DNA from: Rhodococcus sp. G-MC3
GTDB taxonomy: Bacteria; Actinomycetota; Actinomycetes; Mycobacteriales; Mycobacteriaceae
Length of the DNA stretch: 64,000 nucleotides
Direction: 5' to 3'
Assembly (NCBI RefSeq): GCF_030063335.1
Contig: NZ_JASISW010000002.1
Span: 62,001-126,000, forward strand
Each line of letters opens with the position of its first letter. The stretch's first letter is position 1. A program made the translations under genes and the position numbers. Below the pieces are notes generated by a model. The model was not told where the DNA came from, made no database searches, and worked only from the letters and a program-made list of their open reading frames with translations. Below are positions 8,608 to 53,466 of this stretch, piece by piece.

Positions 8608-8663
8608 AGCAGCAGAGGCTACCCGAGCCGAGATGCTGCAGACGCACAGTAACGTCTAACGGC

Positions 8664-9378: not shown

Positions 9379-9383
9379 GGATC

Positions 9384-10553: not shown

Positions 10554-10566
10554 GTAGTCTTGAGCA

Positions 10567-11259: not shown

Positions 11260-11325
11260 CCAGCCCGTGCGTGTTCAGGCGCGCCCCCGTGTCACAAAGC
11301 GCTCACGGGCGGCGAAGCCGCACTC

Positions 11326-12836: not shown

Positions 12837-13889
12837 GTGAGCACAGACGACGTGGGAGTGGAGCCCGCGGAACGAACCGATTGGCCAGTCGGATCGACGG
12901 TCGTAGCCGGGGTGGATCTCGTGGATCCGGAGCTTGCACGAATCGTCGCGACCGGTCTGGAGAACGTCGAGCAATTGATGATCTCCGAGCTGTCCGACGG
13001 GGAGGACTTCCTCACCGAAGCTGCACTTCATCTCGCCAAAGCCGGAGGCAAGCGCTTCCGCCCGCTCTTCACTGTCCTGACAGGCCAGCTCGGACCGGAT
13101 CCGACGGCAGACTCCATCGTCACCGCGGCGACCGTCGTCGAACTCGTTCATCTTGCGACGCTCTATCACGACGACGTGATGGACGAGGCAAGCATGCGCC
13201 GCGGAGCCGAGAGCGCGAATGCACGGTGGGGCAACAGCGTTGCGATCCTGGCGGGCGACTACCTCTTCGCTCACGCCTCGCGGCTGGTGTCGACCCTCGG
13301 GCCCGAGGCGGTACGCATCATCGCCGAGACGTTCGCCGAGCTTGTCACCGGCCAGATGCGCGAGACCATCGGCGTCAAGAAGGACGAGGATCCCGTCGCG
13401 CACTACCTGCGGGTGGTGTGGGAGAAGACCGGTTCGCTCATCGCCGCATGTGGCCGATTCGGCGGGACCTTCTCCGGCGGGGATTCCGATCATGTCGCCG
13501 CGCTCGAACGACTCGGCGACGCCGTCGGCACCGCATTCCAGATATCCGACGACATCATCGACATCTCGTCGGCGTCCGAGCAGTCGGGCAAGACACCTGG
13601 CACCGACCTTCGTGAGGGCGTGCACACCCTGCCCGTTCTCTACGCGCTGACAGACTCGGGTCCCGACGGCGACCGCTTGCGCGTTCTGCTCGACGGCCCG
13701 GTCACCGATGACGCAGCCGTCGACGAGGCATTGAAGCTGCTGGAACGTTCGCCGGGAATGGCGAAGGCGAAAACCACACTCGGTGAGTTCGCGGCAAAGG
13801 CACACGCCGAGCTCGAAAAGCTCCCTCAGGGTGCAGCCAACCAGGCGTTGGGACGGCTCGTCGACTACACGGTCGAGCGGGTGGGCTGA
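12837..13889 (+). CDS. grcC1: All-trans polyprenyl diphosphate synthase for the menaquinone side chain
   Basis: Trans-prenyltransferase that elongates an allylic diphosphate with isopentenyl diphosphate. The 350-residue product has the first aspartate-rich motif in LYHDDVMDEASMRRG and the second in FQISDDIIDISS, with the usual GGKRFRP near residue 75 for IPP binding. Residues just before the first motif are moderately small, which fits a long-chain (C40-C45) product, but the exact length cannot be read. Context (menJ upstream, htpX downstream) matches Rv0562 grcC1, so the product most likely becomes the menaquinone tail. Start is GTG 12837. Confidence 0.92.
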   Translation: MSTDDVGVEPAERTDWPVGSTVVAGVDLVDPELARIVATGLENVEQLMISELSDGEDFLTEAALHLAKAGGKRFRPLFTVLTGQLGPDPTADSIVTAATVVELVHLATLYHDDVMDEASMRRGAESANARWGNSVAILAGDYLFAHASRLVSTLGPEAVRIIAETFAELVTGQMRETIGVKKDEDPVAHYLRVVWEKTGSLIAACGRFGGTFSGGDSDHVAALERLGDAVGTAFQISDDIIDISSASEQSGKTPGTDLREGVHTLPVLYALTDSGPDGDRLRVLLDGPVTDDAAVDEALKLLERSPGMAKAKTTLGEFAAKAHAELEKLPQGAANQALGRLVDYTVERVG

Positions 13890-13894
13890 CACTC

Positions 13895-13922
13895 GGGAAC
13901 CTTGATGGGGGATGCGCTCGTT
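13895..13922 (+). promoter_or_regulatory. Sigma-E/sigma-H-like promoter of htpX
   Basis: GGGAAC (13895-13900) and CGTT (13919-13922) are separated by 18 bp. This matches the GGAAC...GTT pattern of actinobacterial envelope and heat stress ECF sigma factors. It lies 64 bp upstream of the htpX start. The match is by eye only. Confidence 0.45.
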
Positions 13923-13985
13923 CTTCGGTAGGAGAGAACAACGAATCCCCCACGGTCCGCGGGGCAAGGCTGGAAGAGGCTCGAC

Positions 13986-14846
13986 GTGAGTTACGCGAAC
14001 GGTGCAAAGACATTCGGCCTGCTTGTGGGGATGTCGGCGATCATCGTCTTCATCGGCTCGCTGTTCAACAGCTCGGCCATTCTGTTTCTATCGGTCGCAC
14101 TTGCCATCGGCGTCAACGGATACGCGTACTTCAACAGCGCCAAGATGGCACTGCGGTCGATGCATGCGCAGCCCGTGACCGAGGTCGAGCAACCGGCGAT
14201 GTACCGGATCGTCCGTGAACTCGCGACCATCGCTCACCAGCCGATGCCTGCGTTGTACATCAGCCCGACCCACAATCCGAACGCATTCGCCACCGGACGA
14301 AACCCGCGTAATGCCGCCGTGTGCTGCACAAGCGGGATTCTGCAGATTCTCGACGAACGAGAACTTCGAGCCGTCCTCGGCCACGAACTGTCCCATGTCT
14401 ACAACCGGGACATCTTGATCTCGTCGGTCGCGGGCGCTATGGCCGCGGTCATCTCTGGCCTGGCGAACTTCGCGATGTTCGCCTCGATGTTCGGTGGGCG
14501 AGGAAACAACGGGGCCAACCCGGTCGCGCTTCTGCTGGTGTCACTGCTGGGGCCGATCGCTGCGACGGTCGTCAAGCTCGCAGTCTCACGGTCACGCGAA
14601 TATCAGGCCGACCAGTCGGGAGCCGAGCTCACGGGTGATCCACTCGCGCTTGCATCGGCCCTGGCGAAGTTGGAGAGGGGCGTACAGCTCGCCCCACTGC
14701 CTCCTGAGCCTCGTATCGCCGCCGAGTCGCACCTGATGATCGCCAGCCCGTTTCGGGCAGGGGAGAAGGTCGGCAGGCTGTTCGCCTCGCACCCGCCGAT
14801 GGCGGATCGGATCGAGCGGTTGGAGCGGATGGCGAGGGGCGGCTGA
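13986..14846 (+). CDS. htpX: Membrane zinc metalloprotease HtpX
   Basis: Integral-membrane M48 protease that removes misfolded membrane proteins. The 286-residue protein has two N-terminal membrane helices (about residues 9-50), the zinc motif HELSH in [15 protein letters not shown] near residue 135, two further hydrophobic segments at about 145-200, and the third zinc ligand in [13 protein letters not shown]. The start is GTG 13986. A stress-type promoter is visible upstream. It follows the polyprenyl synthase as Rv0563 does in M. tuberculosis, and converges on yajQ across a long inverted repeat. Confidence 0.95.
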
Positions 14847-37984: not shown

Positions 37985-40552
37985 ATGACCGGCACCACTA
38001 TCGGAGACATCACAACTCGATTTTCGCCCGGCCGCGAGGGGTACGCGGAAAATGTCAATCCTGAATTGTTTCGGCTCCTCGGCGCGGTAGATCTGGACGT
38101 CGAATACGTCTCGGGAATGGGCACCGAGTTGTACGACGCCTTGGGGCGGACACATCTCGACTTCGCCGGTGCCTATGGCGCGCTTCCCTTCGGCCACAAT
38201 CCTCCGTGCGTCTGGCGTGCGATGGACGAGGTACGCGAACGTGGCGAAGCGGTGTTCGTTCAACCGTCGGTGCTGTTCCCGGCGGGGGAGTTGGCACGCA
38301 GACTGGTGGCGGTTGCACCGTCCGGGCTCGGGCGTGTGACGTTCGTGAACAGCGGCGCCGAGGCGATGGAGATCGCTATCAAGATCGCCAGGTCGGCCAC
38401 TGGCAGGCTCGGGGTTCTGAGTACGCGCAACAGTTTCCACGGCAAGACCCTCGGTGCACTGTCGGCGACCGGAAACAGCGTGTATCAAAACGGATTCGGG
38501 GCGCCCGTTGCCGGCTTCGAGAGCATTGCGTTCGGAGACAGCGGTGCGCTCGATGAGGCGTTGACCGCAGCCCCCGGGGAGTTCGCGGTCTTCGTCGTCG
38601 AGCCGATCCAGGGTGAAGGGGGAGTCGTGGCGCCGCCCGAGGGCTACCTCGCCCGCGTACGGGAAATCTGTACCGCCCACGGCGTTCTCCTGGCCGTCGA
38701 CGAGGTTCAGACCGGGCTTGGGCGGACTGGAAGACTGTTCGCATGTGAGCACGAAGATGTCGTGCCCGACATCCTGGCGTTGGCAAAGGCACTCGGCGGC
38801 GGTGTCCTGCCAAGCGGTGCCGTTCTCTGCAAACCGGAGCTGGTCGGCGAGAGTTTTGCATTGCGCCACACGTCCACGTTCGCGGGTAACGCGCTCACTG
38901 CCCGAGTCGGGATTGCAGTGCTCGACGAGCTCACCGCGAATGAGAGCGCTCTGGTCACTCGGGTGGCCGACGTCGGTGAGATGCTGAAGATGGAATTGCA
39001 GAAGCTTGCGCTGAAGTATCCGACCGTAGTCACCGACGTGCGGGGCAGGGGTCTGCTTCTCGGTGTCGAACTGACCGACGACATCAACTTCGTCGGCAGG
39101 CAAGCATTGCTGGGCTCCATTGCGGTTCAGTTGAATCTAGCCGCAATGATGTCCTCGTATCTATCTGCGGTCGAAGGCATCCGCATTGCGCCGACCTTGT
39201 TCGGTGCTCGTGTGCTTCGGGTCGAGCCGCCTCTCACGGTGACCGACTCCGAATGCCGTCGCCTGGTCGCGGCGCTCGACCGTGCACTCGGATTCGCGGC
39301 GGCGGGCGATCTCATCGGCCTGATCGGCCATCTCCTTGGGAAGGCGCCGAAAAATGCACCGAAGGCCGTGCCGACTACGCCGCGGAGGCGGCCACACGTA
39401 ACGCCGGTCGCGGGCGACCGCTTCTTCGCGTTCATCGCACACCCGTTGGACCTCGACGTGTTCGAGGCATTCGACCCCGAGCTGCGCGAGCTATCGCATT
39501 CCGAACGTGCGGAACTGTTGAACCGCTTCGCTTTCGGTACCTCCGAAGTCAATCCGTCGCCGCTCGTGATCGGCAGCGGCCGGACGGTGTCGGTGCGTGA
39601 CGGAAGTGCGCACGGCACACTGATCGGGCTTCCGTTCACGTCGAAGTCGCTGCTGATGCTCCCTGCCGAAGCAGCCGTCGCCGCGGTCACAGCGGCGGCG
39701 AACCTCGCGTTCGAGCGTGGCGCAGCTGTCGTGGGTCTCGGCGGATACTCGTCCGTGGTCACCGCAAACGGTCTTGCACTCGGTGAGATGGCAGGGGTCC
39801 TCACGACCGGCAACTCGTTCACGGCTGCGGCCAGCATCCGTGCGGTTCGACGAGTGTGCTCGGAGCGAGGAATGGATCTGAAGGACGTTCGGGTAACCAT
39901 CCTGGGTGCGGCCGGTGCCATCGGCCGGACCATCGCTCGGGCATTGGCACCGGACGTCGGCACGGTGACACTCGTCGGGCGTCCGGGCGAGCACGGGCAG
40001 ATAGCGCCCAAGTTGTGGGCTGCCGCAGGCGAAATCGTGGCCGCCGCCCGAGGCGGCTCCGGTGAATTCGCCGCTGCTGCCGAGCGTTCGGGGGGCTCCG
40101 TCGACGACCTGGTCGCCTCCGGGCATCTCGAATTCTTCGATGATCCGGCCGTGGGAGTGGCGCAGGCGCACGTTGTCATTGCCGCAACGTCCGCGCCACG
40201 CTCGCTGATCGATGCAACCGATCTGGCACCGAACGCCATCGTGTGCGATGTGGCGCAGCCGCCGAACATCCCGCACGATGTCGGTCGGATTCGCCGCGAC
40301 GTGACGGTGTTCGACGGCGGCATCGTCCGGTTGCCTGCAGGTTCGGACTTCGGGCTGGAATATGGTCTGGCTCCGGGTCTCACCTACGCCTGCATGGCCG
40401 AAACCATGTTGCTGTCACTGTCGGAGCGCTTCGAGCTGCGCAGTATCGGAACGGCACTCGACAGCTCCAACGTCGAGCAGCTCGGACTCCTTGCCGATCG
40501 CTACGGGTTCGAGTTGGCAGAGGCTACCCGTTGGCGCGAGGCTCAGCGCTAG
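37985..40552 (+). CDS. Class III aminotransferase fused to an acyl-ACP reductase-like domain
   Basis: An 855-residue two-domain protein. Residues about 30-440 are a fold-type I class III aminotransferase: FVNSGAEAMEIAIKIAR, EPIQGEGGV, LAVDEVQTGLGRTG and the PLP lysine at 268 in LALAKALGGG. Residues about 480-855 resemble cyanobacterial long-chain acyl-ACP reductase: VGLGGYSSVV, LTTGNSFTAAASIRAV, a nucleotide-binding ILGAAGAIGRTIA near 639, FDGGIV, and YACMAETMLL with Cys803 at the place of the acyl-accepting cysteine. The fusion could reduce an acyl thioester to the aldehyde and transaminate it to an amine. I chose ATG 37985 (CGGAG upstream). It ends 4 bp into the convergent GNAT gene. Confidence 0.85.
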   Translation: MTGTTIGDITTRFSPGREGYAENVNPELFRLLGAVDLDVEYVSGMGTELYDALGRTHLDFAGAYGALPFGHNPPCVWRAMDEVRERGEAVFVQPSVLFPAGELARRLVAVAPSGLGRVTFVNSGAEAMEIAIKIARSATGRLGVLSTRNSFHGKTLGALSATGNSVYQNGFGAPVAGFESIAFGDSGALDEALTAAPGEFAVFVVEPIQGEGGVVAPPEGYLARVREICTAHGVLLAVDEVQTGLGRTGRLFACEHEDVVPDILALAKALGGGVLPSGAVLCKPELVGESFALRHTSTFAGNALTARVGIAVLDELTANESALVTRVADVGEMLKMELQKLALKYPTVVTDVRGRGLLLGVELTDDINFVGRQALLGSIAVQLNLAAMMSSYLSAVEGIRIAPTLFGARVLRVEPPLTVTDSECRRLVAALDRALGFAAAGDLIGLIGHLLGKAPKNAPKAVPTTPRRRPHVTPVAGDRFFAFIAHPLDLDVFEAFDPELRELSHSERAELLNRFAFGTSEVNPSPLVIGSGRTVSVRDGSAHGTLIGLPFTSKSLLMLPAEAAVAAVTAAANLAFERGAAVVGLGGYSSVVTANGLALGEMAGVLTTGNSFTAAASIRAVRRVCSERGMDLKDVRVTILGAAGAIGRTIARALAPDVGTVTLVGRPGEHGQIAPKLWAAAGEIVAAARGGSGEFAAAAERSGGSVDDLVASGHLEFFDDPAVGVAQAHVVIAATSAPRSLIDATDLAPNAIVCDVAQPPNIPHDVGRIRRDVTVFDGGIVRLPAGSDFGLEYGLAPGLTYACMAETMLLSLSERFELRSIGTALDSSNVEQLGLLADRYGFELAEATRWREAQR

Positions 40553-41196
40553 ACCTGGGTACCGGTTCGTTCCGCCGGCCCGCCGCTCACGCGGGCCGGC
40601 GGGCGGTTCATGCGGTACACGTGTGGTCCTTTCGGTCCGATGGTCGCGGTTCCGGCCTCCTCGAATCCCATTGCGGTCCAGAACGGAATGTTGCCGTCCT
40701 TGCAAATGCCGTAAGTGGTTCGTCCCTGGCTGTCCATGCGATCGAAGATGGTTTTCGTCAACGCTGCGCCGACACCGGAGCGGTGCAGGCTCGGTTCCAC
40801 TCCCAGATAGACCCACAGCACGGCGTCCTCGTTCGGAGCGCCATCGTCCAGCATTCGATCCATCTGAATGCCGGCCCGAACACCGCGCTTCATCGCCCAC
40901 AGCAAATGTGGGCCTGCGACGAGCCCCCGCCACCACGGACCCTGACGCGCTCCGTGTGGATGCCACAGGCTGACGCCGACGATCCGTCCGGCCTGCAACG
41001 CCACATCTGCGCCGCCGACCGGTAGATAGCGGTGCCGAATGAGCGCAGCCATCATTCTCCGCTGCATGGTAGGCCTTCGTTTCTCCTTTGGAAAGAAATA
41101 TCCGCTGACAGGGTCGTCGGATTGGAAGGCGCGGGCCATCATCGCCGACATCTCTCGTATGTCTGCCTTGGTGGCAAGTCTGATATCAACCGACAT
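40549..41196 (-). CDS. GNAT family N-acetyltransferase
   Basis: A 215-residue acyl-CoA N-acyltransferase. The N-terminal SVDIRLATKADIREMSAMMARAF and the acetyl-CoA-binding motif A in WVYLGVEPSLHRSGVGAALTKTIF (RSGVGAAL is the pyrophosphate loop) are clear, with motif B in NIPFWTAMGFEEAG. The layout matches GNAT proteins that acetylate amines or aminoglycosides, and an amine made by the cluster is an attractive but unproven substrate. Start at ATG 41196 overlaps the 3' end of the MMPL gene by 11 bp, so the two are co-transcribed. Confidence 0.88.
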   Translation of the reverse strand: MSVDIRLATKADIREMSAMMARAFQSDDPVSGYFFPKEKRRPTMQRRMMAALIRHRYLPVGGADVALQAGRIVGVSLWHPHGARQGPWWRGLVAGPHLLWAMKRGVRAGIQMDRMLDDGAPNEDAVLWVYLGVEPSLHRSGVGAALTKTIFDRMDSQGRTTYGICKDGNIPFWTAMGFEEAGTATIGPKGPHVYRMNRPPARVSGGPAERTGTQV

Positions 41197-43339
41197 TCTG
41201 AGTGTCCTTGTCTCGGGCGGTGGTATCGGATTCGGGGACAGACTTTTTCGGGTGCAGCCACCAGTTGGCCTCACCCATCAGTGTCACGAGCGCCGGTACG
41301 AGCAGCATTCGGACCACCGTCGCGTCGAGGATCAGCCCAACGATGACGCCGATGCCGAGCAAGCGCATCATCGCCAACTCGGACAGTGAGAACGCCGCCG
41401 TGACGGTGATGAGCAGCAAAGCTGCAGCGGTGACCACGCGCCCTGTCCTGGAGGCGCCGATGCGGACGGCGTCGCGTGTACTCGCGCCTCGATCGTGTGC
41501 TTCGACGATCCGTGAGAGAAGGAAGATCTCGTAGTCGGTGGAGAGCCCGAACACCACTGCAAGTATCAGGATGCTCATCGTCGCTTGAAGTGGACCGCGC
41601 GTGATACCCACCGCACCGGCACCATGCCCGTCGACGAATATCCAGGTCAGTACTCCGAATGTTGCTGCAAGGCTGATCATTGCCATCACGATTGCCTTGA
41701 TGGACAACACGATCGACCGGAACGCAGCGGTGGTCACGACGAATGTTGCGGCGATCATGATGGCGAACATCCAGGGCACGGTGCCGTAGATGGAATCGAT
41801 TCCGTCCTGACTCAGCGCAGTGGGTCCACCGATCATGATGACGGTGCCCTCCGGTGGAGCGATCTCGCGTATCGAATCCACGGTGGCGAGCGCACCCTGC
41901 GTGCGGTCCGGTGATGTCAGAATTGCGCGTACGACGGCATAGTCGTCCGCAACTCCGCCCGGGGCCGCGGCCGCGATGCCGTCGACGTCGCTCACCTCGT
42001 CGACCACCAGTTGGACCGAACGCGAATCCGGCTGCCCGCCGTCGGTCGACTGAATCATCACGGTGACTCCGGAATTGGCGAGGGGAAAGTCCGAGAACAA
42101 TGTGTCCGTAGCGACTCGAGCCGGTGAATCTTGCGGAAGGCCCTTGTGGTCGAGGTCGCCCAGTGTTGCCCCGAACACGGGGGCGCTGAGCAAGGCCAGG
42201 AACGCGATGATCGCGACCGCGACGACGACCGGCCTCCGCATCACTGCCGAGGCCACCGAACCCCAGAATCGTTCTGCGCGTGCGTCACCGCGCTCGATGG
42301 CACCTGAGCGCCAGCTGAGCGAGTTGATTCTGGGGCCGAGCAGCGCAAGCGCAGCGGGAAGTGCTGTGAGAGAGACGAATGCTGCTGCGGCCACTGCTGC
42401 CATACCGCCGTAGCCGAGCGACCGGACCATCGCCTGCGGGAAGATGAGCATTCCGATGAACCCGCACACCAGCAGCAATCCGGAGAAGGCGACGGTTCGG
42501 CCTGCGGTTCTCATGGTGCGACGGACCGCGTCCGCTGTCGATGCACCGTCGCGGATTTCTTCTCGAAAGCGTGTGAGTACGAACAGGCTGTAGTCCACCG
42601 CCATGCCGAGACTGACGAGTGTGGCGATGTTGGTGGCGAAGACACTCACTTCGGTGAACATGGTGAGGACCCGCATCACGGCGAGCGAGCCGAGGATGCT
42701 GAGCCCGCCGATGCACAGCGGTATCGCCGCTGCGGTTACTCCGCCGAAGATCAGCAGCAGCAGCACCATCAACACCGGGAACGTGATGGTCTCGGCGCGA
42801 ATGAGGTCGGCGCGTGCTTCGGTGTTGTACGCGTTGGCGATCACGGAGAATCCGCCGAACTGCACGTCGATTCCGTCGATCGAACGAGCCTCTGCGATAT
42901 CGCGATACGCCTTGATGCGGGTGCCCTCGTCGCCGTTGAACGTCAGCACTGCAAGAGCGGAACGCCGGTCGAACGACACCAACCCCGTTGTGAACGCGGG
43001 TGGCACGTTCCAGTAGGTCGTCGGCGCACGCACGAGCAACCCCGGGTCGATCCGGGCGAGGTTGTCCGCGACGACATCACCGATGTCGTCGACGCCGCGG
43101 CCGTCGGTGGGGGTGTAAACGATGGCAACGTCCGGGACGGTGCGCCCGAATTGCGCGTCGACGATGTCATCGACCTGCGCGGCTTGACTATGGGGATCGG
43201 AGTATCCGCCGAGGCTGAGGGTCGAGACGACTTCGACGCCCCATATGCCCGCGGCGACAATGACCACCACGCATGTCGCGAGGACGTACCGGGCGTGCGT
43301 GATGATGGCGTCGACGACTCGGTCGCGTGCTGTGGACAA
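41186..43339 (-). CDS. MMPL/RND family lipid transporter
   Basis: A 717-residue inner-membrane exporter of the MMPL family, which move lipids and glycolipids to the mycobacterial outer layer. Family features are the first helix (about 19-39), the large external loop, and two blocks of five helices at about 180-350 and 530-690. The conserved GMAVDYSLFVLTRF and GLSTDYEIFLLSRIVE segments hold the paired Asp-Tyr sites that carry protons. The C-terminal cytosolic tail is short. The start is TTG 43339, supported by AAGAGGA upstream. Position beside PKS and GNAT genes suggests export of the cluster product. Confidence 0.92.
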   Translation of the reverse strand: MSTARDRVVDAIITHARYVLATCVVVIVAAGIWGVEVVSTLSLGGYSDPHSQAAQVDDIVDAQFGRTVPDVAIVYTPTDGRGVDDIGDVVADNLARIDPGLLVRAPTTYWNVPPAFTTGLVSFDRRSALAVLTFNGDEGTRIKAYRDIAEARSIDGIDVQFGGFSVIANAYNTEARADLIRAETITFPVLMVLLLLIFGGVTAAAIPLCIGGLSILGSLAVMRVLTMFTEVSVFATNIATLVSLGMAVDYSLFVLTRFREEIRDGASTADAVRRTMRTAGRTVAFSGLLLVCGFIGMLIFPQAMVRSLGYGGMAAVAAAAFVSLTALPAALALLGPRINSLSWRSGAIERGDARAERFWGSVASAVMRRPVVVAVAIIAFLALLSAPVFGATLGDLDHKGLPQDSPARVATDTLFSDFPLANSGVTVMIQSTDGGQPDSRSVQLVVDEVSDVDGIAAAAPGGVADDYAVVRAILTSPDRTQGALATVDSIREIAPPEGTVIMIGGPTALSQDGIDSIYGTVPWMFAIMIAATFVVTTAAFRSIVLSIKAIVMAMISLAATFGVLTWIFVDGHGAGAVGITRGPLQATMSILILAVVFGLSTDYEIFLLSRIVEAHDRGASTRDAVRIGASRTGRVVTAAALLLITVTAAFSLSELAMMRLLGIGVIVGLILDATVVRMLLVPALVTLMGEANWWLHPKKSVPESDTTARDKDTQNVG

Positions 43340-43597
43340 AGCAGAATCCTCTTCGGTCGACGAACGCAGATCTCTCGAATGGCATGCGAAGAATACGAAC
43401 CGTGACGTGGCCTGCCCGGCGGTGACGAACGAGCCCCCTGTGGCGCCGCTGAGCAGCCTCGACGCCGTGACATTACACCGATCTGTGCAGGGCGTCGAGG
43501 GTGCCGACCGGTACGAGGTTCGGCTACGCTATCGGCCACGGCTTGGTCCGGCCTCAGTGGTTGCAAGTCGTTCTCCTCCTTGGTTTTTCGGTCGTCT

Positions 43598-44626
43598 ATG
43601 GTCAACAATTCAACTGCTCCAGGATGGATACACGTGGATCGACATCGAACCCTCTCGTCTACCGCTCGATTCTTCGTCGACGCACTGCCTTCGAGAGTGG
43701 TGACCAACGAGGAGTTGTGCCGCGACCTCGATACGAACGAGAACTGGATCGAGACGAGGACTGGAATCTCGACCAGGCGATTCCTCGAACCGCAGCGTGC
43801 GGCGTCGGACCTTGCGCTCGAAGCCGCGAAACGCGTCCTCGACGAGAGCGGCACTGCTGCAATCGATATCGATGCAATCGTGCTTGCCACGGCGAATCCC
43901 GACCAACCGTTTCCGTCCACGGCCCTCACCGTCGCGCACGGCCTCGGTGCGAGCCGTGCGCTTCCCATCGACCTGACGCAGGCGGCCTGCGCCGGCGGAC
44001 TGTTGGCGTTGGAAGTGGCGTCCACGATGATCGGCAATCGATACAGGACCATCCTCGTGATCGCTGTCGAAGTGTTCTCGCGGCAGACCGATCCGCGAGA
44101 CAGGACCACCAGGGTTTTCTTCGGCGATGCAGCCGGAGCAGCGTTGGTTGTGCAGGAAACTCACGCAGACAGGGGGATTCGGTCGGTGGTGCTCGCCTCC
44201 GAGTTCGACATGTCCGTCGGAATCAGCGGCGGTGGATCGCGCAACCCCTTCACTGTCGATGCGGTCGCTCGCGGCGATCATTACATCTACATGGATGGCC
44301 CGCGCGTGTGGAAATTGGCGACCACATTGCTGCCGGAGGTGGTTCGTCAGTCCGCTGAGGATGCAGGATTGGTTGTGGACGAGATCGACAACTTCGTCTT
44401 TCACCAGGCGAACCGGAACATCATCGAGGATGTGATGGACACGCTCGGTCTCGATCGATCCCGCGCCCTCATCACGCTCGACAAACTTGGAAATACGGGA
44501 GCAGCGAGTATTTTCACAGTTCTCGCGCAGCTGTCGCGCGAGGGCAAGATCGGCGCAGGAAAAGTGACGGTGATCGCGGCAATCGGTGCAGGGTTCATCT
44601 GGGGTGCAATGGTGCTGGTTCACTGA
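43598..44626 (+). CDS. Ketosynthase III (FabH-like) condensing enzyme
   Basis: A 342-residue thiolase-fold enzyme of the FabH/KAS III group. The catalytic triad is visible: Cys in TQAACAGGLLAL, His in FVFHQANRNII and Asn in KLGNTGAAS. FabH normally condenses acyl-CoA with malonyl-ACP to start chains; homologues in secondary metabolism also transfer acyl groups or start polyketides. The usual fabH neighbours are absent. Start is uncertain: ATG 43598 is used here, but GTG 43634, with GGATGGAT upstream, would give a length closer to the family. It is divergent from the MMPL gene across about 260 bp that contains no gene. Confidence 0.88.
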   Translation: MVNNSTAPGWIHVDRHRTLSSTARFFVDALPSRVVTNEELCRDLDTNENWIETRTGISTRRFLEPQRAASDLALEAAKRVLDESGTAAIDIDAIVLATANPDQPFPSTALTVAHGLGASRALPIDLTQAACAGGLLALEVASTMIGNRYRTILVIAVEVFSRQTDPRDRTTRVFFGDAAGAALVVQETHADRGIRSVVLASEFDMSVGISGGGSRNPFTVDAVARGDHYIYMDGPRVWKLATTLLPEVVRQSAEDAGLVVDEIDNFVFHQANRNIIEDVMDTLGLDRSRALITLDKLGNTGAASIFTVLAQLSREGKIGAGKVTVIAAIGAGFIWGAMVLVH

Positions 44627-44655
44627 CCTGACCTGACCTGACCTGACCTGACCTG
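44626..44655. repeat. Six tandem ACCTG pentamers
   Basis: Six perfect ACCTG units follow the TGA of the ketosynthase III gene directly. This is the simplest tandem repeat in the window and lies between convergent genes. Confidence 0.95.
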
Positions 44656-44664
44656 AAACACCTG

Positions 44665-44705
44665 AATGGTCCATTCATGCTGTCGGGTAACATGAATGGA
44701 CCATT
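44665..44705. terminator. Perfect 15-bp inverted repeat between convergent genes
   Basis: AATGGTCCATTCATG (44665-44679) and CATGAATGGACCATT (44691-44705) are perfectly complementary with an 11-base spacer. A two-way terminator is the simplest role. Each arm also contains a TGAATGG-N-CCATT half-palindrome of the kind bound by TetR-type regulators. Confidence 0.7.
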
Positions 44706-44716
44706 ACAGCGGTGTG

Positions 44717-46060
44717 CTACAGCTGCTCCAATACCCCCGCCACCTCGGTGATCGCTCGATCGATCTGCTCGACCGTGTGCTCACTGGAGACGAACAGCCT
44801 CAACCGCTCCTCGCCCGCAGGCACCGACGGATACGTGATGGCATTGAGGTTGATCCCCGCATCGAGCAGAGTGACGGCCGCGATCACCGCTTTCTGGGTG
44901 TCCCCGACGATGATCGGCAGAATGGGGGTCCCCTCGGCCAATCCTGTGTGTAGACCGAGTGATTGCGCCTGAGCGAATGCCCGTTTCGCGTTGGATTGCA
45001 ACCGAGCAACGCGATCCGGTTCGGCATCGATGATGTCGAGTGCGGTGAGTGCAGCGGCGATCGACGCGGGCGCAGGGGCCGTTGCGAACATACTCAGCCC
45101 CGGCGCCGAATACTTGAACGCGCGGATCAACTCACGGCTACCGGCAACGAACCCCCCGACGCTGCCGAGTGCCTTCGACATGGTTCCCATCCATACGTCG
45201 ACGGCGTCACCGTCGAGGCCGTACAGATCGCGGATTCCGTGGCCGTGTTCGCCGAGCACACCGAAGGCATGGGCCTCGTCGATCATCACCGCGCAGTCGT
45301 ACTGGCGAGCGACTGCAATCAACTGCGGCAGCAGAGCGACGTCGCCGTCCATGCTGTAGTGACTTTCGAGAATTACGAGTGCACGCTTGAAGCTGCCGCG
45401 TGACATCTTGAGGATCGCTTCGAGCGCGGCCGGATCGTTGTGCCGGAACGTCACCCGGCGGCACCCTGCCCATTCGGTGCCGGAGACGATGCTGCTGTGC
45501 ACCAACGCGTCGCATACCGCAAGGTCACCCTGGCCGAGCAGGTATCCGACCGCCGCTGCGTTGGTGAGGTACCCACTCGTTGTGATCACTGCGTCGTCGA
45601 CGTCGTAAATTCCCGCGATTCGTGACTCGAAGTCCGCGTACAACGGGATCTCTCCCGACACGATGCGACTGGCGGAGACGGAGGTTCCGTATCGATCGAT
45701 CGCGTCCTTGGCGGCGTCGGCGAGGCGGGTGTCTGCGCTGAGCCCCAGGTAGTTGAAACTCCCGAAGTTGATCATGTCGCGATCGAGTTGCCTGATGATC
45801 GGGCCACTCTTGCCCTCGTGCGGCAGGTACAGCGGATTGGGTACACCCAAACCGCTGAACATCGCGTCCACACCGTCGAACTGCGCGACGGTCGAGACGA
45901 TATCCGGATGGTCCAGCAAACCGTGCGCTCCAGTCTTGGCAACCGTGACCGCAGGACTGGACGAAGCGACCGCCGCGGGACCCGGATCCTCGAGCGGAAC
46001 CGTCGAATACCCGGTCCTGGACAGAAGTCGCCTGGCTATCTCACGCGAGTCAGTGGTCAT
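44717..46060 (-). CDS. Alpha-oxoamine synthase (class I/II PLP enzyme, BioF/SPT-like)
   Basis: A 447-residue PLP enzyme that, by family, condenses an acyl thioester with an amino acid with loss of CO2 to give an alpha-amino ketone. Motifs: INFGSFNYLGLSADTRL, GTSVSASRIVSGEIPLY, DEAHAFGVLGEHGHG and the PLP lysine in GTMSKALGSVGGF. BioF itself uses pimeloyl-thioester and alanine; serine palmitoyltransferase uses serine. The specificity here cannot be read. ATG at 46058-46060 lies one base after the PKS stop, with GGAGG upstream, so expression is coupled. An N-terminal extension of 70 residues (TGYSTVPLEDPGPAAVASSS) is not in BioF. In biotin synthesis the neighbours would be bio genes, which are absent. 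Confidence 0.9.
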   Translation of the reverse strand: MTTDSREIARRLLSRTGYSTVPLEDPGPAAVASSSPAVTVAKTGAHGLLDHPDIVSTVAQFDGVDAMFSGLGVPNPLYLPHEGKSGPIIRQLDRDMINFGSFNYLGLSADTRLADAAKDAIDRYGTSVSASRIVSGEIPLYADFESRIAGIYDVDDAVITTSGYLTNAAAVGYLLGQGDLAVCDALVHSSIVSGTEWAGCRRVTFRHNDPAALEAILKMSRGSFKRALVILESHYSMDGDVALLPQLIAVARQYDCAVMIDEAHAFGVLGEHGHGIRDLYGLDGDAVDVWMGTMSKALGSVGGFVAGSRELIRAFKYSAPGLSMFATAPAPASIAAALTALDIIDAEPDRVARLQSNAKRAFAQAQSLGLHTGLAEGTPILPIIVGDTQKAVIAAVTLLDAGINLNAITYPSVPAGEERLRLFVSSEHTVEQIDRAITEVAGVLEQL

Positions 46061-46061
46061 C

Positions 46062-49000
46062 TCAATTGCCTCCCGCAGAGTCAGACGAGGACAAAGCGGG
46101 CACGCCGGAGGCAAGGATGGTGTCCGAGGCCGGAATCACCTCGACGGCAAGCAGTTCGCCTGCAGGTGCAGCGGCTGCCGGCGCGGCCGTCGCCGCGCCG
46201 TCGCCGCGTGCGGTGAGGCCCGCGGCCAGCTTCGCGCCGATTGCGGCGAGCCCATGTCCTCGCCCGAACTCGAGAACCGAGAGTTCGAGCCCGACGGTCT
46301 TGCCGACGCGGGCAGCGAACTCGACTGCCATGAGCGAGTCGAGACCCAGCTCGGGGAGAGGGGTCTGTACGTCGACGGCTTCTGCCTCGACGTCCATCAC
46401 CAGCGCAAGCTGTTCGGCCAGGATGAACGTGAGAACCTCGGCCCGCTGATCCTCTGGAAGCGCGAGGATCTCGGCGTGCAGTGCGGAGATTCCGGATCCG
46501 CCGGTGCTGGCGGCCGCGATGTGGGCCGCGAACCGTGGAATCGACGCGGACGCGGGGTTCGCGAGGCCCCACTGCTCCCAGTCGATGCCCACGAGCGCGA
46601 CATGTGGAATGTCGAGGGTGAGGCATTCGCGCAGGAAGCGCGTCGCCTCATCCATGTCGATATTCTTGAACCCCAGCATGTCCAGGTACCGGACCACTTG
46701 TTGTTTCGCCTCGGCCATGCCACCGCCCGACATGGAGCCCCAGCTGACCGTGAATGCAGCCTTGCCGCGCTGGCGCCGCGACCAGGCCAGCGCGTCGAGA
46801 ACCGAGTTGGCTGCCGAGTACGACACCTGGGGTGCGCCGCCGGTGAGGCTGCTCATCGAGGAGAACATCACGAAGATGTCCGAATCGATCCCCAGCTCGT
46901 CGAGTGCGCGGTCGAGGTGAACGGCACCGTCGACCTTGGGAAGGAATATGTTTCGCAGTGACTCGTCGGTGATGTCGTTGATGGCGAAGTTGTCCACCAG
47001 ACCGGCTGTATGGAAGATGCCGCGTACAGGGGCATTGCTGTCCTGCGCTCGGATGAGTAGCCCGCGGACCCCGTCGTAGTCGGAGATGTCGAGCAATTCC
47101 TGTACGACGGTCACTCCGGCTTCGGCGAACTCCGCGAGAGTCTGCCTTGCGCGGTCCGTGGTCGGTCCGCTCCTTCCGACCAGAACCAGGGTGCGAGCAC
47201 CTTCGTCGACGAGCCACTTGGCGATCGCGGTACCGAATGCTCCGAAACCTCCCGTGACGACATAGGTTGCCTCGGGGTCGATCTCGACGGTCGGAATTTC
47301 GGGGCGGACGACGGGGGAGTCCTCGGTGAAGCTCAGCACGACTCGTCCGGTGTGCGAGGACCGGATCACCGAGTCGAATGCCTCGCCGACGCGGTCGAGC
47401 GTGTACGTCGTGTACGGGAGATGCCGGTATGTGCCTGCCGACATCTTGTCGAGTACCTCGCGGGTGACCTGCCTAGCGAGATCGGGTTTGTGTTCGAACA
47501 TACGGTCCATGTCGACCGCATAGAAGGTGATGTTGCGGTCGAACGGCTTCAGGTCCATGACGCCGCCGAAATAGATGTCGGCTTTGCCGAGTTCGATGAT
47601 CCGCGCGAATTCGCCTGCCACGTGCAGGTTCTGGGCCATGATCTCTCCGGGCGACGAGTTGAAGACCACGTCGACGCCGCGGCCGTCGGTCAGCGCCATC
47701 ACCTCTTCGGAATAGTTGAGCGACCTCGACGCGAGCACCTCGTGTGCACCGGCCGCGCGTGCTACCTCTCGGCGCTCCTCGGTGCCTGCGGTTGCGATGA
47801 CCCGAGCGCCCATGAGCCGGGCAACCTGGACTGCAGCCAGACCCATGCCTCCTGCTGCGCCGTGAATCAACACCGTTTCACCCGGCTGCACGCGGGCCAG
47901 GTACACCAGTCCGTACTCCGCGCACAGGAACGGCAGAATCGAGGAGCACCAACCGGACTCCCAACGGGAAGGAATCTTCATGGTGCCGCCCTCGTCGACG
48001 CCGAGAGTGATGTAGCGGCGCATCATCTCGCGCGCGCACACCCCCATCTTGTCACCCACCGCGACATCGGTGACACCGTCTCCGATTCTGGTGACGGTGC
48101 CCGCGCCTTCCAATCCGAGAGTGGTACCGAAGTAGGTGCCCGACAGCTCCTTGTCGGTGAGCACGCCCATCACCTTGAGCGGATCTTTGTAGTTCAGCCC
48201 CACAGCTTCCATTCGCACCTCGATCTCGCCGTGTCCGGGAGCGCGGCGCGCGTGGACGCGAAATGCCAGATCGGACAGCAACTTCGTCGACGGTACCTCC
48301 ACCGCGAACGATTGCTCGGGGTCCTTCGACACGGTCGGCTGATCCCTGACGGCGAGGTGCTCACTCAGGTTGTTCTGCAGGATGACAACCCAGCGAGAGC
48401 CCTGACGGAGGGCGACCTCATCGACCACGTCGGACCCGAACGGTCCGAAGGCGAACGTCTCGGCGGCGATCTCGGACACCGCTGTCGAGGGTTCGGTGTC
48501 GATGAATCGCCATGCAGCGGGGGACTGTTCGTTGCGCAGTGACCGCCTGGCACCGACAAGACTCGCGTGTGCCAGGTCGGCTCCGTCGACGTCGCCCGGC
48601 ATGCAGAATGCTCGCTGAGTGACCACCACGGCCGAGACGCTGCCCGGCTCGGTGGCCGGCCCGGTGTCGTCGCCGTAGATGGCGACATGCACGGTGCGCG
48701 CGACGGTGAGGAGCGATAAGACTGCGCTCGCCGGGTCGGTGAAGGTACCCGCGACGGCGATCACCGTGGCCCGGTCGATGCCGTCGATGGCCATTCCTTC
48801 GCGCAGTGCTGCAACGAGTTCGGGCACCGTTGTGCCTTCGGCGTTCACAATGTTCGAGGCCGGCCGAGACGCTGCGATGGCCTCGGCACGCTGCTGTGCA
48901 CTCGGATCCGGTGTTCCGAGCGTCACGACGAGTGCGAAGTCGCGAGCTGCCTCGGTTCCGATCGCGTCTGCGTCACGATTGTCCCGAAGTTCCCAGGTCG

Positions 49001-52000
49001 GTTCGTAGAACACTGTGCCCAACCTGGTGTGCAGCGACTGCGGTGGCGCGATCGGCCGGAATTCGACGCTTCCGAGGGTGACTGCGGCACGTCCTTCGGC
49101 GTCGGTCACGGCGATGTCCGCTCGCATCGGGTAGGTGCTGGTCCGTCTGACGATCACGGTGGCGCGGCGCGGTATCGGCCCGAATCTGCGCACCGCTGCG
49201 ATGGAGAACGGAACGACCGCACCCGACACGGCGTTCGGCGAGGCCAACGTCGCAACACACTGGAGTGCGGTGTCGAGGACAGCGGGATGCACGAGGTGCC
49301 GACTGCCCGTGTGGCGTGAGCTGTCGATGGTGGCCACCACGACGTCTGCGCCGATTCGTGCTGTTTCGATGCCCTGGAACGCCGGTCCGTACTGCAGGCC
49401 CGCCGCGCTCAGCAGTGGATAGAGAATGTCTCCGGTGATATCGGTGATATCGGCGGTCATATCGGTCGTCGAAGAATCGACGAAGGGCGCATCGAAGTGG
49501 CCTTCGACGAGTCGGCCGATCGCGTTGGTGGTCCATACGGTGTCGGCGGCAGATCGAGAGCGGATGACGAAGCGTCGGGTGCTGTCCTCGACCGCGACCT
49601 GAAGAACCGGGACGTCGTGCTTGTCGACGACGAGCGGTGCAACGAACTCGACGTGCTCTAGCCCGACTTCGCCGCGACCCGACCGGACAGCTGCCGCGCT
49701 GAGTGCGGCATCGAGGTAGGCGGTGCCCGGGAGCAGTACGAGACCGTCGACGACGTGGTCCTGCAGCCAGGGCAACTGCGAAACAGCAAGTTCGGCTTGC
49801 CATTCCGATGCTGCTGCGCTTGTTCTGTCACCGAGCATCGGGTAGACGGTGTTCGAGCCCATCCGGTCGGCAATCGAGGCTGCATCCTCGGTCCAGACCC
49901 GAGTCTTCTGCCAGGGGTAGGCAGGCAACGACACGTGTGGCGATGCGAGTGCACTCTCGGCCGCGAAGACTCGGCCGTCGAAGGAACCGGCGCAGTACAG
50001 ATTCGACAGGGCGATGTTCAACGAGACCGCGTCGCTCTCTCGGCGGACCAATGTGCCGATCGAGGTGCCCGGATCGCCGGTGCGAATGATAATTTCGCGA
50101 ATGTTGCCGGACAGCACGGGGTGCGGTCCGATCTCGAGGAACACCCGATGTCCGCGTCCGATCAGTTCGCTGACGGTGTCGGCGAACCGCACCGGTTTGC
50201 GGACGTTGTCGCACCAGTAGGCCGCGCCCCAACTCGCATCGGTGACCTCGTGGGCGGTAACCGTCGAGAACAAGGCCAGTTTCGGAACGCGGGGATCGAG
50301 CTCGTTCAAGCTGGTTGCCACGTCCGCGAGAATCGGATCCATCAGGTGGCTGTGATACGGGACCTCGACCTGCAGCCGCTTGGCGAAGTAGCCGCCGTCG
50401 GTGAGTTTGTCGGCCAACACTGTGAGGTGCTCGACGTCACCCGCGAGTGTCACCGCCGTCGGACTGTTGATAGCGGCGACCGAAACGTGCGCGACCATGT
50501 CCTCGCCCGCCGCCGCCAGATATGCGACGGCGTCGGCTTCTGAGAGGCCCACGGCCAACATCGAACCACTGCCCGCCGTCCTCGCTTGCAAGCGTGCGCG
50601 ATGGCAACTGACAAGCAAGGCGTCGTGCAGACTCAATGCGCCGCTGACATAGGCTGCGCTGACCTCACCGACGCTGTGGCCGACGACCGTCTCGGGTTCG
50701 ATTCCCGCTGCTCGGAGTTCGGCGACGAGGGAAACCTGCACGAGAAAGTTGGCAGGCTGTGCCACTTCGGTGTTGGTGACACGTGAGTGTTCCTCGTCCC
50801 GGCACAGCTCTTCGATGATGGACCAGCCGGCAATCTCGATGAACGCGTCGTCGACGATCTGTGCGGTGCGAGCGAATTCGCCACCGGCGTGCAGGAGTTC
50901 ACGTGCCATTCCCCACCATTGGGGTCCCATTCCGCTGAAGACGAAGACCGGGGCCGCGCCCGCGGTATCCACCACGTGCGACGTCGTTCCGGTGCCGGCT
51001 GCGAAGTCACGGAGTTTCGACAGAAGATCAGTGCTGTCAGTGAAGCTCAGTGATGCGCGGACGGGGTGGTGGGCTCGCCTGGTCCATGCGGCCGCCGTGA
51101 AGCCCCTGAGAGTGCGGTCGACGTCGTCCGGTTCGACGTCGTCCGGTTCCGTCCCTGCCAGGAGCGAGTCGAGGGAGTCCGCCAACGAGGTCGCCAGTGT
51201 GCGCACCGCGGCATCGGTGCGGGCCGAGAGAGGGAACAGGCGCACGGGGAGTGGCCGGACTGCCGGCGACTCGGCTGCCGGTGCAGTCTCCATCACGACG
51301 TGTGCGTTGGTGCCGCCGTAGCCGAATCCGTTGATGGCAATGATCGGCCGGTCGTAGTGGTCGGGGAACGGTTCGACTTCGGTGGGAATGCGGATGGCCA
51401 GGTCGTCGAATGGAATCGCTGGGTTCAACGTGTCGAGCCACGCCTGCGGAGCGATGGTGCGGTGGTGGATGGACAGTGCGCTCTTGATGAGGCTCGCGAT
51501 GCCCGCTGCCGCTTCCGTATGCCCGATCGATGCCTTGATGGAGCCGACGATCAACGCACTCTCGCGGCCGTCGACGGCGCCGTAGGCGCCGCCGAGGGCC
51601 TCCAATTCGAGCGGATCGCCGACGGACGTGCCGGTGCCGTGGGCTTCGACGTATCCGACGTCCTTGGGGTTTATCCCTGCCTCGGCGCACACGCGCTCGG
51701 CGAGAGCTCGCTGCGACACCGGGTTGGGGACCGGGATGGCGATGGTGCGGCCGTCTTGGTTGACGCCGGAGCCGCGGATGACCGAGTAGATGCGATCGCC
51801 GTCGCGGATCGCGTCGGCAAGCGGACGCAGCAACACCATTCCAGCGCCTTCACCACGGCCGTATCCGTCGGCTGCGGCGTCGAAGGATTTGGACCGGCCG
51901 TCGAAGGCCAGGAAACGACCCTTGCACATCGAGATGAACGTCTCGGGCCTGATCATCGTGTTGGCGCCGCCGACGAGAGCCATTTCGCACTCGCCTCGCT

Positions 52001-52568
52001 CGAGCGCGCGCACTGCCTCGTGCACGGCAACCAGGGAGGACGAGCACGCGGTATCGATGGTCATCGACGGCCCGACGAGGTCGAGGCAGTAGGAGATTCG
52101 GTTGGACAGCAGAGTGTGCGAGCTGCTGGTTGCGCTGTGTGCGTTGATGAACGGGCGACCTGTCGACGACGCGCGCAGGCCTGCGGAGTCGTTGGTGAAT
52201 CCGCCGATGTAGACGCCGACGGGCTGGCCGGACACGCGTCCTGCATGGCCGCCGTCGTCGAGGGCTTCCCACGCAACTTCGAGCAGAAGCCGTTGCTGCG
52301 GATCGGTGACCGATGCTTCGCGCGGAGAAATTCCGAAGAACTCGGGGTCGAAGTCCCACAGCGACTGCGTCAGAAAGCCACCCTTGCGGGTGTACATGCG
52401 TCCTGGTGCGTCTGGGTCTGGATCGTAGAATCTGTCGGCGTTCCATCGGTCCTCGGGGATGTCGACAATTCCGTCACCCTTCGAGATCATGAACTCCCAG
52501 AAACTCTTCCCGTCGTGTACTCCGCCCGGGAACCGGCACCCGATACCGACTAGTGCAATCTCGACCAT
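46062..52568 (-). CDS. Type I polyketide synthase, single fully reducing module (KS-AT-DH-ER-KR-ACP)
   Basis: A 2168-residue modular enzyme. KS (about 3-430): Cys175 in TIDTACSSS, EAHGTGT and SIGHTEAAAG. AT (about 535-830): GHSVGE with Ser near 631 and VPYHSH. DH (about 910-1190): HVVDGLVLLPG (His near 938) and HPAVLDTALQ. ER (about 1450-1760): GAAGGMGLAAVQVA near 1569. KR (about 1770-1960): TGGFGAFG and VSYSAAN with Tyr near 1916. ACP: LGLDSLMAVE, phosphopantetheine Ser near 2078. There is no thioesterase. The order equals that of mycobacterial Mas-type synthases, which work iteratively. I chose ATG 52568, with AGGGGAGA upstream; the longer frame is an extension into the intergenic region. 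It is translationally coupled to the alpha-oxoamine synthase. Confidence 0.95.
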   Translation of the reverse strand: MVEIALVGIGCRFPGGVHDGKSFWEFMISKGDGIVDIPEDRWNADRFYDPDPDAPGRMYTRKGGFLTQSLWDFDPEFFGISPREASVTDPQQRLLLEVAWEALDDGGHAGRVSGQPVGVYIGGFTNDSAGLRASSTGRPFINAHSATSSSHTLLSNRISYCLDLVGPSMTIDTACSSSLVAVHEAVRALERGECEMALVGGANTMIRPETFISMCKGRFLAFDGRSKSFDAAADGYGRGEGAGMVLLRPLADAIRDGDRIYSVIRGSGVNQDGRTIAIPVPNPVSQRALAERVCAEAGINPKDVGYVEAHGTGTSVGDPLELEALGGAYGAVDGRESALIVGSIKASIGHTEAAAGIASLIKSALSIHHRTIAPQAWLDTLNPAIPFDDLAIRIPTEVEPFPDHYDRPIIAINGFGYGGTNAHVVMETAPAAESPAVRPLPVRLFPLSARTDAAVRTLATSLADSLDSLLAGTEPDDVEPDDVDRTLRGFTAAAWTRRAHHPVRASLSFTDSTDLLSKLRDFAAGTGTTSHVVDTAGAAPVFVFSGMGPQWWGMARELLHAGGEFARTAQIVDDAFIEIAGWSIIEELCRDEEHSRVTNTEVAQPANFLVQVSLVAELRAAGIEPETVVGHSVGEVSAAYVSGALSLHDALLVSCHRARLQARTAGSGSMLAVGLSEADAVAYLAAAGEDMVAHVSVAAINSPTAVTLAGDVEHLTVLADKLTDGGYFAKRLQVEVPYHSHLMDPILADVATSLNELDPRVPKLALFSTVTAHEVTDASWGAAYWCDNVRKPVRFADTVSELIGRGHRVFLEIGPHPVLSGNIREIIIRTGDPGTSIGTLVRRESDAVSLNIALSNLYCAGSFDGRVFAAESALASPHVSLPAYPWQKTRVWTEDAASIADRMGSNTVYPMLGDRTSAAASEWQAELAVSQLPWLQDHVVDGLVLLPGTAYLDAALSAAAVRSGRGEVGLEHVEFVAPLVVDKHDVPVLQVAVEDSTRRFVIRSRSAADTVWTTNAIGRLVEGHFDAPFVDSSTTDMTADITDITGDILYPLLSAAGLQYGPAFQGIETARIGADVVVATIDSSRHTGSRHLVHPAVLDTALQCVATLASPNAVSGAVVPFSIAAVRRFGPIPRRATVIVRRTSTYPMRADIAVTDAEGRAAVTLGSVEFRPIAPPQSLHTRLGTVFYEPTWELRDNRDADAIGTEAARDFALVVTLGTPDPSAQQRAEAIAASRPASNIVNAEGTTVPELVAALREGMAIDGIDRATVIAVAGTFTDPASAVLSLLTVARTVHVAIYGDDTGPATEPGSVSAVVVTQRAFCMPGDVDGADLAHASLVGARRSLRNEQSPAAWRFIDTEPSTAVSEIAAETFAFGPFGSDVVDEVALRQGSRWVVILQNNLSEHLAVRDQPTVSKDPEQSFAVEVPSTKLLSDLAFRVHARRAPGHGEIEVRMEAVGLNYKDPLKVMGVLTDKELSGTYFGTTLGLEGAGTVTRIGDGVTDVAVGDKMGVCAREMMRRYITLGVDEGGTMKIPSRWESGWCSSILPFLCAEYGLVYLARVQPGETVLIHGAAGGMGLAAVQVARLMGARVIATAGTEERREVARAAGAHEVLASRSLNYSEEVMALTDGRGVDVVFNSSPGEIMAQNLHVAGEFARIIELGKADIYFGGVMDLKPFDRNITFYAVDMDRMFEHKPDLARQVTREVLDKMSAGTYRHLPYTTYTLDRVGEAFDSVIRSSHTGRVVLSFTEDSPVVRPEIPTVEIDPEATYVVTGGFGAFGTAIAKWLVDEGARTLVLVGRSGPTTDRARQTLAEFAEAGVTVVQELLDISDYDGVRGLLIRAQDSNAPVRGIFHTAGLVDNFAINDITDESLRNIFLPKVDGAVHLDRALDELGIDSDIFVMFSSMSSLTGGAPQVSYSAANSVLDALAWSRRQRGKAAFTVSWGSMSGGGMAEAKQQVVRYLDMLGFKNIDMDEATRFLRECLTLDIPHVALVGIDWEQWGLANPASASIPRFAAHIAAASTGGSGISALHAEILALPEDQRAEVLTFILAEQLALVMDVEAEAVDVQTPLPELGLDSLMAVEFAARVGKTVGLELSVLEFGRGHGLAAIGAKLAAGLTARGDGAATAAPAAAAPAGELLAVEVIPASDTILASGVPALSSSDSAGGN

Positions 52569-53008
52569 GACTCTCCCCTGATCCTCCGCCGGCCTGATGA
52601 TTCGCGACCTCGGGCGGCCACAGATCGCCGACCGTGCGCTCTGTTCGAGCGGTCTGATCGTCGTGTTCCCCCCGAAACGCCGTGATGCGCGGAGGGCGCC
52701 GACCCAATCGACATCGACACGTGTGGCGAGATCTTGTGTTCGCGGAGCCCCCTGCGCTGAATGAATACAACCAGACTCGACCGCGAACCGCCATAGTGAA
52801 TTTCGATACTTGTCAGTCATTTTCGGTTGTTTCAACGAACGATGACAAGGTCAATTTTTCAATAGTTTTCGCAGTTATGCCGTGGTCCATGTCCAGCGCT
52901 CTGCTTGCCCGATGGATTCTGAGAGTGTTCGAAGGAGTTGCTGCACAGTATGTTTCGCATCCCAAAAGTCTTAGTTCAGCTGAATCGTCTGGTAGGCAGT
53001 ATATTTCG

Positions 53009-53067
53009 CGCACGTTGCAGCTGGCCGCGCAGACTGCAGACGGCGCGAACGCCTGGAACCTGCGCGG
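53009..53067. repeat. 59-bp element, copy A
   Basis: 55 of 59 bases match copy B at 53111-53169, and the last 33 are identical. It ends GAACGCCTGGAACCTGCGCGG. The palindrome is less perfect than in copy B (CCGCGCAGACT against AACCTGCGCGG). Confidence 0.85.
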
Positions 53068-53110
53068 TTGGAGGCTGGGGTAGTGAGGAGGCTGGGGCGG
53101 TTGGGTGCGG

Positions 53111-53169
53111 CGCACGTTCCAGCTGACCGCGCAGGTTGCAGACGGCGCGAACGCCTGGAACCTGCGCGG
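53111..53169. repeat. 59-bp element, copy B, with perfect inverted repeat
   Basis: CCGCGCAGGTT (53127-53137) pairs perfectly with AACCTGCGCGG (53159-53169). GTTCCAG and CTGGAAC inside the unit also pair, giving alternative folds. It lies 102 bp from copy A and about 300 bp before the rpoB promoter. Confidence 0.85.
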
Positions 53170-53466
53170 CCGGCGGCGGACGATGGCCTCAGGGGTCGCG
53201 CCGGCACGACCGTCGGGGGAGTGTGACTCGGGGGCGCGGGCACGCATCGAGGACCGACCGGTTCGGTGGTTTCGCTCAACCGCGGCAAACCGGCACGCCG
53301 CAGGAATTACCGGGCCTTCCCTCTTGACGCATGGGCGTGCAAGGTTCAGTCTTGTCCTCGGAAGGCACCCCCGCAGCGATCGTCACACTCGATCGCTCGA
53401 CCCGCGACACGCCGCTTTCGAAGGCGCCGCAGGTTCTGATCCCGGGTGCTACTTTTGATGCCCCTG

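Follow-up and report, generated by a model that had tools for sequence, protein, structure and literature searches.

We analyzed a 64,000-nucleotide stretch of DNA from Rhodococcus sp. G-MC3 (assembly GCF_030063335.1, contig NZ_JASISW010000002.1, positions 62,001–126,000; hereafter "the window"); the genome is 5.6 Mb in size and assembled into 102 contigs. The window carries four genes, which encode a single-module polyketide synthase (PKS), an alpha-oxoamine synthase (AOS), a GNAT family acetyltransferase and an MMPL family transporter. A similar pair has been described from Pseudomonas fluorescens MYb115, where the iterative PKS PfSgaA works with PfSgaB, an AOS with serine palmitoyltransferase (SPT) activity (2025; PMC12134224). 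On balance, we think that the four genes form a Mycobacteriales branch of this SgaAB kind of sphingoid pathway.

The proposed pathway has four steps. First, the PKS, which has the domains and motifs to do so, would build a linear reduced acyl chain on its ACP, working iteratively and probably with malonyl units. Second, the AOS would condense the chain with an amino acid in a decarboxylative reaction; its relatives suggest that this is most likely L-serine. The AOS, whose family, fold and active-site residues are those of such an enzyme, would thereby do the work of a thioesterase, and the product would be a 3-ketosphinganine-type amino ketone. Third, the GNAT, whose fold is clear, may acetylate the free amine. 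Fourth, the MMPL, which resembles MmpL3, would move the lipid toward the envelope. In some species a FabH-like ketosynthase III (KSIII) may also prime the chain, although this is a guess. We are not equally confident in all steps. That the AOS releases the PKS chain as a long-chain amino ketone is very likely, and that the amino acid is serine is likely.

The gene set in the window

An original prediction, made from the sequence alone, had assigned six genes between 37985 and 52568 to one biosynthetic cluster, and all six lie at the predicted positions and are intact. The features are as follows.

46062–52568, minus strand: PKS, single module, 2168 amino acids from its ATG (Pfam domains, motifs)
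about 51171–52562, minus strand: KS domain of the PKS (Pfam)
50004–50948, minus strand: AT domain of the PKS (Pfam)
49041–49841, minus strand: DH domain of the PKS (Pfam)
47334–48233, minus strand: ER domain of the PKS (Pfam)
46728–47270, minus strand: KR domain of the PKS (Pfam)
46266–46421, minus strand: ACP domain of the PKS (Pfam)
44717–46060, minus strand: AOS, pyridoxal phosphate enzyme, 447 amino acids, proposed to release the chain with an amino acid
44665–44705: perfect 15-nt inverted repeat (11-nt loop) in the space where the AOS and KSIII genes converge
43598–44626, plus strand: FabH-like KSIII, optional member (Cys, His and Asn motifs present)
41186–43339, minus strand: MMPL transporter, 717 amino acids, proposed exporter (MmpL3 is the nearest solved structure)
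40549–41196, minus strand: GNAT, 215 amino acids, proposed N-acetyltransferase of the product (GNAT fold)
37985–40552, plus strand: TamH-type class III transaminase/thioester reductase fusion, judged not to be a cluster member

Pfam confirms the predicted KS-AT-DH-ER-KR-ACP layout of the PKS, and a thioesterase is not among its matches. The catalytic motifs are present. A single nucleotide separates the PKS stop from the AOS ATG, and the MMPL and GNAT genes overlap by 11 nt, which agrees with the coupled translation suggested earlier for both pairs. Between AOS and MMPL lies the KSIII gene, which has the opposite orientation. Hence, PKS–AOS and MMPL–GNAT cannot share one transcription unit here.

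The six genes show dN/dS values of 0.06–0.22 in comparisons with as many as eight other genomes from the genus (dS 0.67–1.79, partly saturated). In the ten other genomes that carry the cluster there are zero stops within the matched parts of PKS, AOS, MMPL and GNAT (in G018 the PKS is only partly on the contig). The low dN/dS together with the lack of stops in the matched parts indicates that the gene set is more than a chance assembly.

The inverted repeat at 44665–44705 is perhaps a two-way terminator. It is preceded by short tandem repeats of the 5-nt unit CTGAC (44623–44705 for both together).

The PKS–AOS pair and its relatives

Matches to the AOS at E 1e-105 or better occur in 47 of 401 genomes of the family and in 5 of 31 genera, counted by score and not by tree; the weakest two of the 47, at 45% identity, may be of another kind. 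We also scanned named genomes with the AOS alignment and kept the best 80 loci. Among these, we assign 21 Nocardia and Mycobacterium loci to the same clade as the window, 18 by tree and three Nocardia loci (L078, L080 and L084) by identity alone. Upstream of the AOS and on the same strand, 16 of the 21 have KS-AT-DH-ER-KR; four have part of it, with the rest off the contig, and one lies at a contig edge. The AOS directly follows the PKS in all 20 clade loci where this could be tested. Six of the 21, as well as genome G122, have a GNAT from the family of the window GNAT immediately upstream of the PKS, and in one Mycobacterium locus (L091) a different MMPL (32% identical) directly follows the AOS. 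In the other 59 loci the region upstream of the AOS holds KS-AT-DH-ER-KR (35), part of it (2), a KS without the full set (6) or none of these (16); in ten of these last 16 the AOS starts less than 3 kb from the edge of the stretch.

Two variants of the arrangement were seen. In four loci from other genera of the family (L049, L050, L051 and L053), KS-AT and AOS apparently form one open frame of about 1400–1600 amino acids. We regard this as a different PKS–AOS arrangement, in which an intervening ACP is assumed. The 18–20 kb around three further members of this KS-AT clade (the PKSs of L176, L177 and L178, from G042, G051 and G057) contain no AOS match; these PKSs must release their chain otherwise or use an unlinked AOS.

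In a KS-AT tree of 59 of 92 candidate rows, in which proteobacterial proxies stand in for PfSgaA, the Mycobacteriales PKSs are sister to proteobacterial PKSs that are linked to an AOS (quick method, SH-aLRT 98). Three Pks2-type synthases fall outside both clades. To judge from these sequences, the PKS likely shares an ancestor with the AOS-linked PKSs of Proteobacteria.

This tree bears on a different explanation, namely that the PKS is a Mas/Pks2-like synthase that makes methyl-branched acids for a cell-wall lipid and that the AOS is incidental. The domain order is indeed the same, and the match to the NCBIfam Pks2 model extends over almost its full length, with 1052 bits against a cut-off of 2400. 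Yet the tree sets the PKS apart from the Pks2-type proteins. Its AT motif is PYHSH, whereas the three Pks2-type proteins have VASHS, a difference that we take to reflect substrate specificity. The AOS that follows the PKS in every testable clade locus also argues against an incidental partner. We reject methyl-branching on the tree and the AT motif, and consider the explanation as a whole highly improbable.

The AOS itself forms a Mycobacteriales-only clade in both trees that we built, the first with 43 of the 80 loci (support 100/100) and the second after six rows had been dropped (three distant family rows, L121, L129 and L133; support 93). The sister of this clade differs between the two: the first tree does not resolve it, and the second groups SgaB-like enzymes with KS-AT-type and cyanobacterial AOSs. 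Set beside the KS-AT tree, this makes a single PKS–AOS ancestor likely for the PKS, but does not settle it for the AOS.

SPT is the best solved match of the AOS by three methods. The scores against the NCBIfam SPT equivalogs are 286, 273 and 210 bits and do not reach the cut-offs of 640, 500 and 670. BioF and KBL-type enzymes reach scores near that of SPT, and in our reading the active-site residues leave the choice of amino acid undecided. The same machinery could therefore use alanine or glycine, so that the product would be a 1-deoxy-type amino ketone and not a true sphingoid base. We think this somewhat unlikely, since SPT comes first by all three methods and since PfSgaB, the one characterized enzyme of such a PKS–AOS pair, is described as accepting serine almost exclusively (PMC12134224).

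Distribution within the genus

Within the genus, close AOS orthologs (73–100% identity) are found in 11 of 37 genomes; further matches at about 35–37% are other AOS enzymes. Orthologs of the PKS (72–100%) and the GNAT occur in the same 11 genomes, one of which has a weak second GNAT match. MMPL orthologs (65–100%) are present in all 11 and in six more, and paralogs at about 40–53% identity in all 37. The original prediction proposed to look for co-conservation of the whole set. This co-conservation is seen for PKS, AOS, GNAT and MMPL, which are found together in all 11 cluster genomes and, beyond the genus, in G139, where GNAT, AOS, PKS and MMPL all have the same orientation and are flanked by mce genes and rpoB. 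It does not extend to the fusion or to KSIII, both of which the G139 cluster lacks. KSIII (66–100%) is present in only seven of the 11 cluster genomes, with 36–40% matches in two others, and so is not a required part.

In the window, the plus-strand fusion gene lies downstream of an mce operon and converges with the GNAT gene; on the PKS side rpoB and rpoC follow, also on the plus strand. We compared this site with the ten other cluster genomes and with 19 genomes that have the fusion without the PKS. Both flanks, the mce side and rpoB, are visible at nine of the 11 cluster sites including the window (in G006 over two overlapping loci); at the remaining two (G018 and G028) the contig stops before rpoB would be reached. 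The 37 genomes thus comprise 11 full clusters, six sites with MMPL alone between fusion and rpoB (L062–L065, L068 and L073), 11 empty sites where rpoB begins about 0.4–0.65 kb past the fusion, two contig ends (G013 and G033) and seven others. These seven have neither PKS nor fusion, and their loci lie outside the comparison.

A tree of the 29 fusion proteins, 27 of them scored (G013 and G033 were left unscored, as their contigs end before rpoB), places the cluster in both main branches and requires at least three changes of presence. At this number of changes gain and loss cannot be told apart. Our reading is that the cluster is old, that it disappeared repeatedly and that the MMPL was retained in some cases. 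In 11 loci (the six with MMPL alone and five of the 11 empty ones) no remnants of PKS, AOS, GNAT or KSIII were found at E 0.01. What weighs against a strict link of the MMPL to the pathway is that five of the six MMPL-only genomes keep a full-length MMPL (717–722 amino acids to the stop); in the sixth, G025, the MMPL end is altered.

The intergenic region between PKS and rpoB (53008–53177) holds two 68-nt direct repeats, 90% alike and 102 nt apart, whose 32-nt core has only two occurrences in the genome at up to two mismatches. In G006 about 7 kb lie between GNAT and the fusion gene (L074, about 7500–14000), with open reading frames that by eye resemble IS21-type istA/istB.

The neighboring fusion

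The fusion consists of an N-terminal class III transaminase and a C-terminal AAR-like thioester reductase with GxxGxxG and Cys motifs. In domain order and motifs it matches the published description of PtTamH, an enzyme that converts acyl thioesters to fatty amines (PMC9594044); we compared the two by description and not by alignment. A swapped domain order holds only relative to PigE, and the order of PtTamH is identical. In contrast to PtTamH, the fusion gene lies downstream of an mce operon. A putative fatty-amine enzyme stands beside an operon for a lipid importer, with or without the PKS.

If the six genes were one cluster, as originally predicted, the fusion would turn the PKS chain into an alkylamine. 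PtTamH is described as performing such chemistry on acyl-ACP (PMC9594044), and 10 of the 11 cluster genomes have the fusion gene next to the cluster, G006 with the 7 kb insertion between them. However, the fusion is found in 29 of the 37 genomes, in 10 of the 11 with PKS and in 19 of the 26 without it, and both G010, a cluster genome, and G139 have the cluster without the fusion. Because its distribution differs from that of the PKS, we judge the fusion to be a separate, TamH-like enzyme. The alkylamine branch of the predicted product falls with it, and a six-gene pathway is very unlikely.

The acetyltransferase and the transporter

Pfam recognizes the GNAT only weakly, below all cut-offs, and its fold is clearly that of a GNAT. 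In sequence and fold it is nearest to puromycin N-acetyltransferase (7K09/7K0A), the closest solved GNAT, although the two are only about 21% identical. Kinship with the GNATs of two proteobacterial clusters found no support (hhalign probability 0.1 and 7.4%).

Among solved transporters the MMPL is closest to MmpL3, which scores 436 bits; the best MmpL5/MmpL4 reaches 116. Like MmpL3, it has two DY motifs. Unlike it, the MMPL is 717 amino acids long and scores 516.7 bits against a cut-off of 1400 for the NCBIfam equivalog (trehalose monomycolate exporter), and the same genomes encode separate, longer MmpL3-like proteins.

One could also argue that the product is a bioactive amine, that acetylation by the GNAT serves self-protection and that the MMPL is an efflux pump and not an exporter of envelope lipids. 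The nearness of the GNAT to puromycin N-acetyltransferase fits this idea, as does the patchy presence of the cluster in 11 of 37 genomes, which is like that of secondary metabolism. Since the MMPL is so much nearer to MmpL3, a lipid flippase, than to MmpL5/MmpL4, we consider a bioactive amine unlikely and keep the sphingoid lipid as the preferred reading.

Comparison with known systems

The AOS resembles the SPT of Sphingobacterium multivorum (3A2B/8GUH) in its fold over 392 residues, in the lysine that binds pyridoxal phosphate and in the neighboring motifs. It differs in being coupled to a PKS, in an N-terminal extension of about 60–90 amino acids and in sequence, with 33% identity.

The closest known pathway is that of PfSgaAB, and the earlier guess of a sphingoid-like product fits it. 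Its products are described as C24, C26 and C28 sphinganines, most likely leading to phosphoglycerol sphingolipids, and SgaC is its presumed, not proven, ketone reductase (PMC12134224). The statement that no pathway with this gene set had been described remains valid for the precise combination of genes. It does not apply to the core, since a PKS with an AOS is what makes sphinganines in MYb115. According to the same paper, bacterial sphingolipids had been regarded as confined to a small number of phyla. The words "Gordonia", "Mycobacteri" and "Rhodococcus" have zero occurrences in its main text; its Supplementary Data 4 lists 6,101 homologous clusters (PMC12134224). Among the titles found in the open-access literature we recognized none on a Mycobacteriales PKS–AOS pathway, although that list of 6,101 may include Mycobacteriales.

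As in PfSgaAB, a single-module reducing PKS directly precedes an AOS gene of the same orientation, and the two systems are kin in the KS-AT tree by way of the proteobacterial proxies. A Pseudomonas plasmid carries a cluster of PKS, AOS, dioxygenase, capsule-type genes, GNAT, an LTA synthase family protein and a short-chain dehydrogenase/reductase (SDR). It probably has the same layout as the MYb115 cluster because the locus-tag spacing from AOS to SDR is equal. Identity to the plasmid pair is 43% for the AOS and 30–36% for the PKS. The window PKS is about 330 amino acids shorter than PfSgaA (2168 vs. 2497), mainly between DH and ER. The proteobacterial PKSs in general exceed it in length, mostly in this same region. 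One of them (L100), the only one that was scanned, has the same domain set as the window PKS and no extra Pfam domain between DH and ER.

The two systems also differ in their partner genes. Among 35 complete proteobacterial PKS–AOS loci, an SDR of the plasmid type lies near 29 and an LTA synthase-like gene near 25. At E 1e-5, neither a KDSR-type (SgaC-like) SDR nor an LTA synthase-like gene was detected in the window or in the ten other cluster loci of the genus. Weak SDR matches occur in a few loci from Nocardia. Two candidates for the ketone reductase were rejected. The SDR that neighbors the AOS in Nocardia higoensis (L093) occurs in every one of the 37 genomes and so is not cluster-specific, and the plasmid SDR matches SDRs at 29–39% identity in all 37. 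What the window cluster has instead is the MMPL and a GNAT of a different family.

Our broadest proposal is tentative: some mycolic-acid bacteria (this genus, Nocardia and some Mycobacterium) may make a PKS-derived, N-acetylated sphingoid lipid and, in two genera or more, export it to the envelope by an MmpL3-like transporter encoded alongside, with the KDSR and LTA synthase partners of the proteobacterial pathway replaced. If it is true, these bacteria have a class of lipids that is served by a dedicated exporter. If the branch works as proposed, sphingoid-type lipids made by a PKS route would be expected in this genus, in Nocardia and in some Mycobacterium strains, with a link to an MmpL-type transporter in two genera. 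The question of endogenous sphingoid lipid synthesis in mycolic-acid bacteria thereby becomes a simple one to test.
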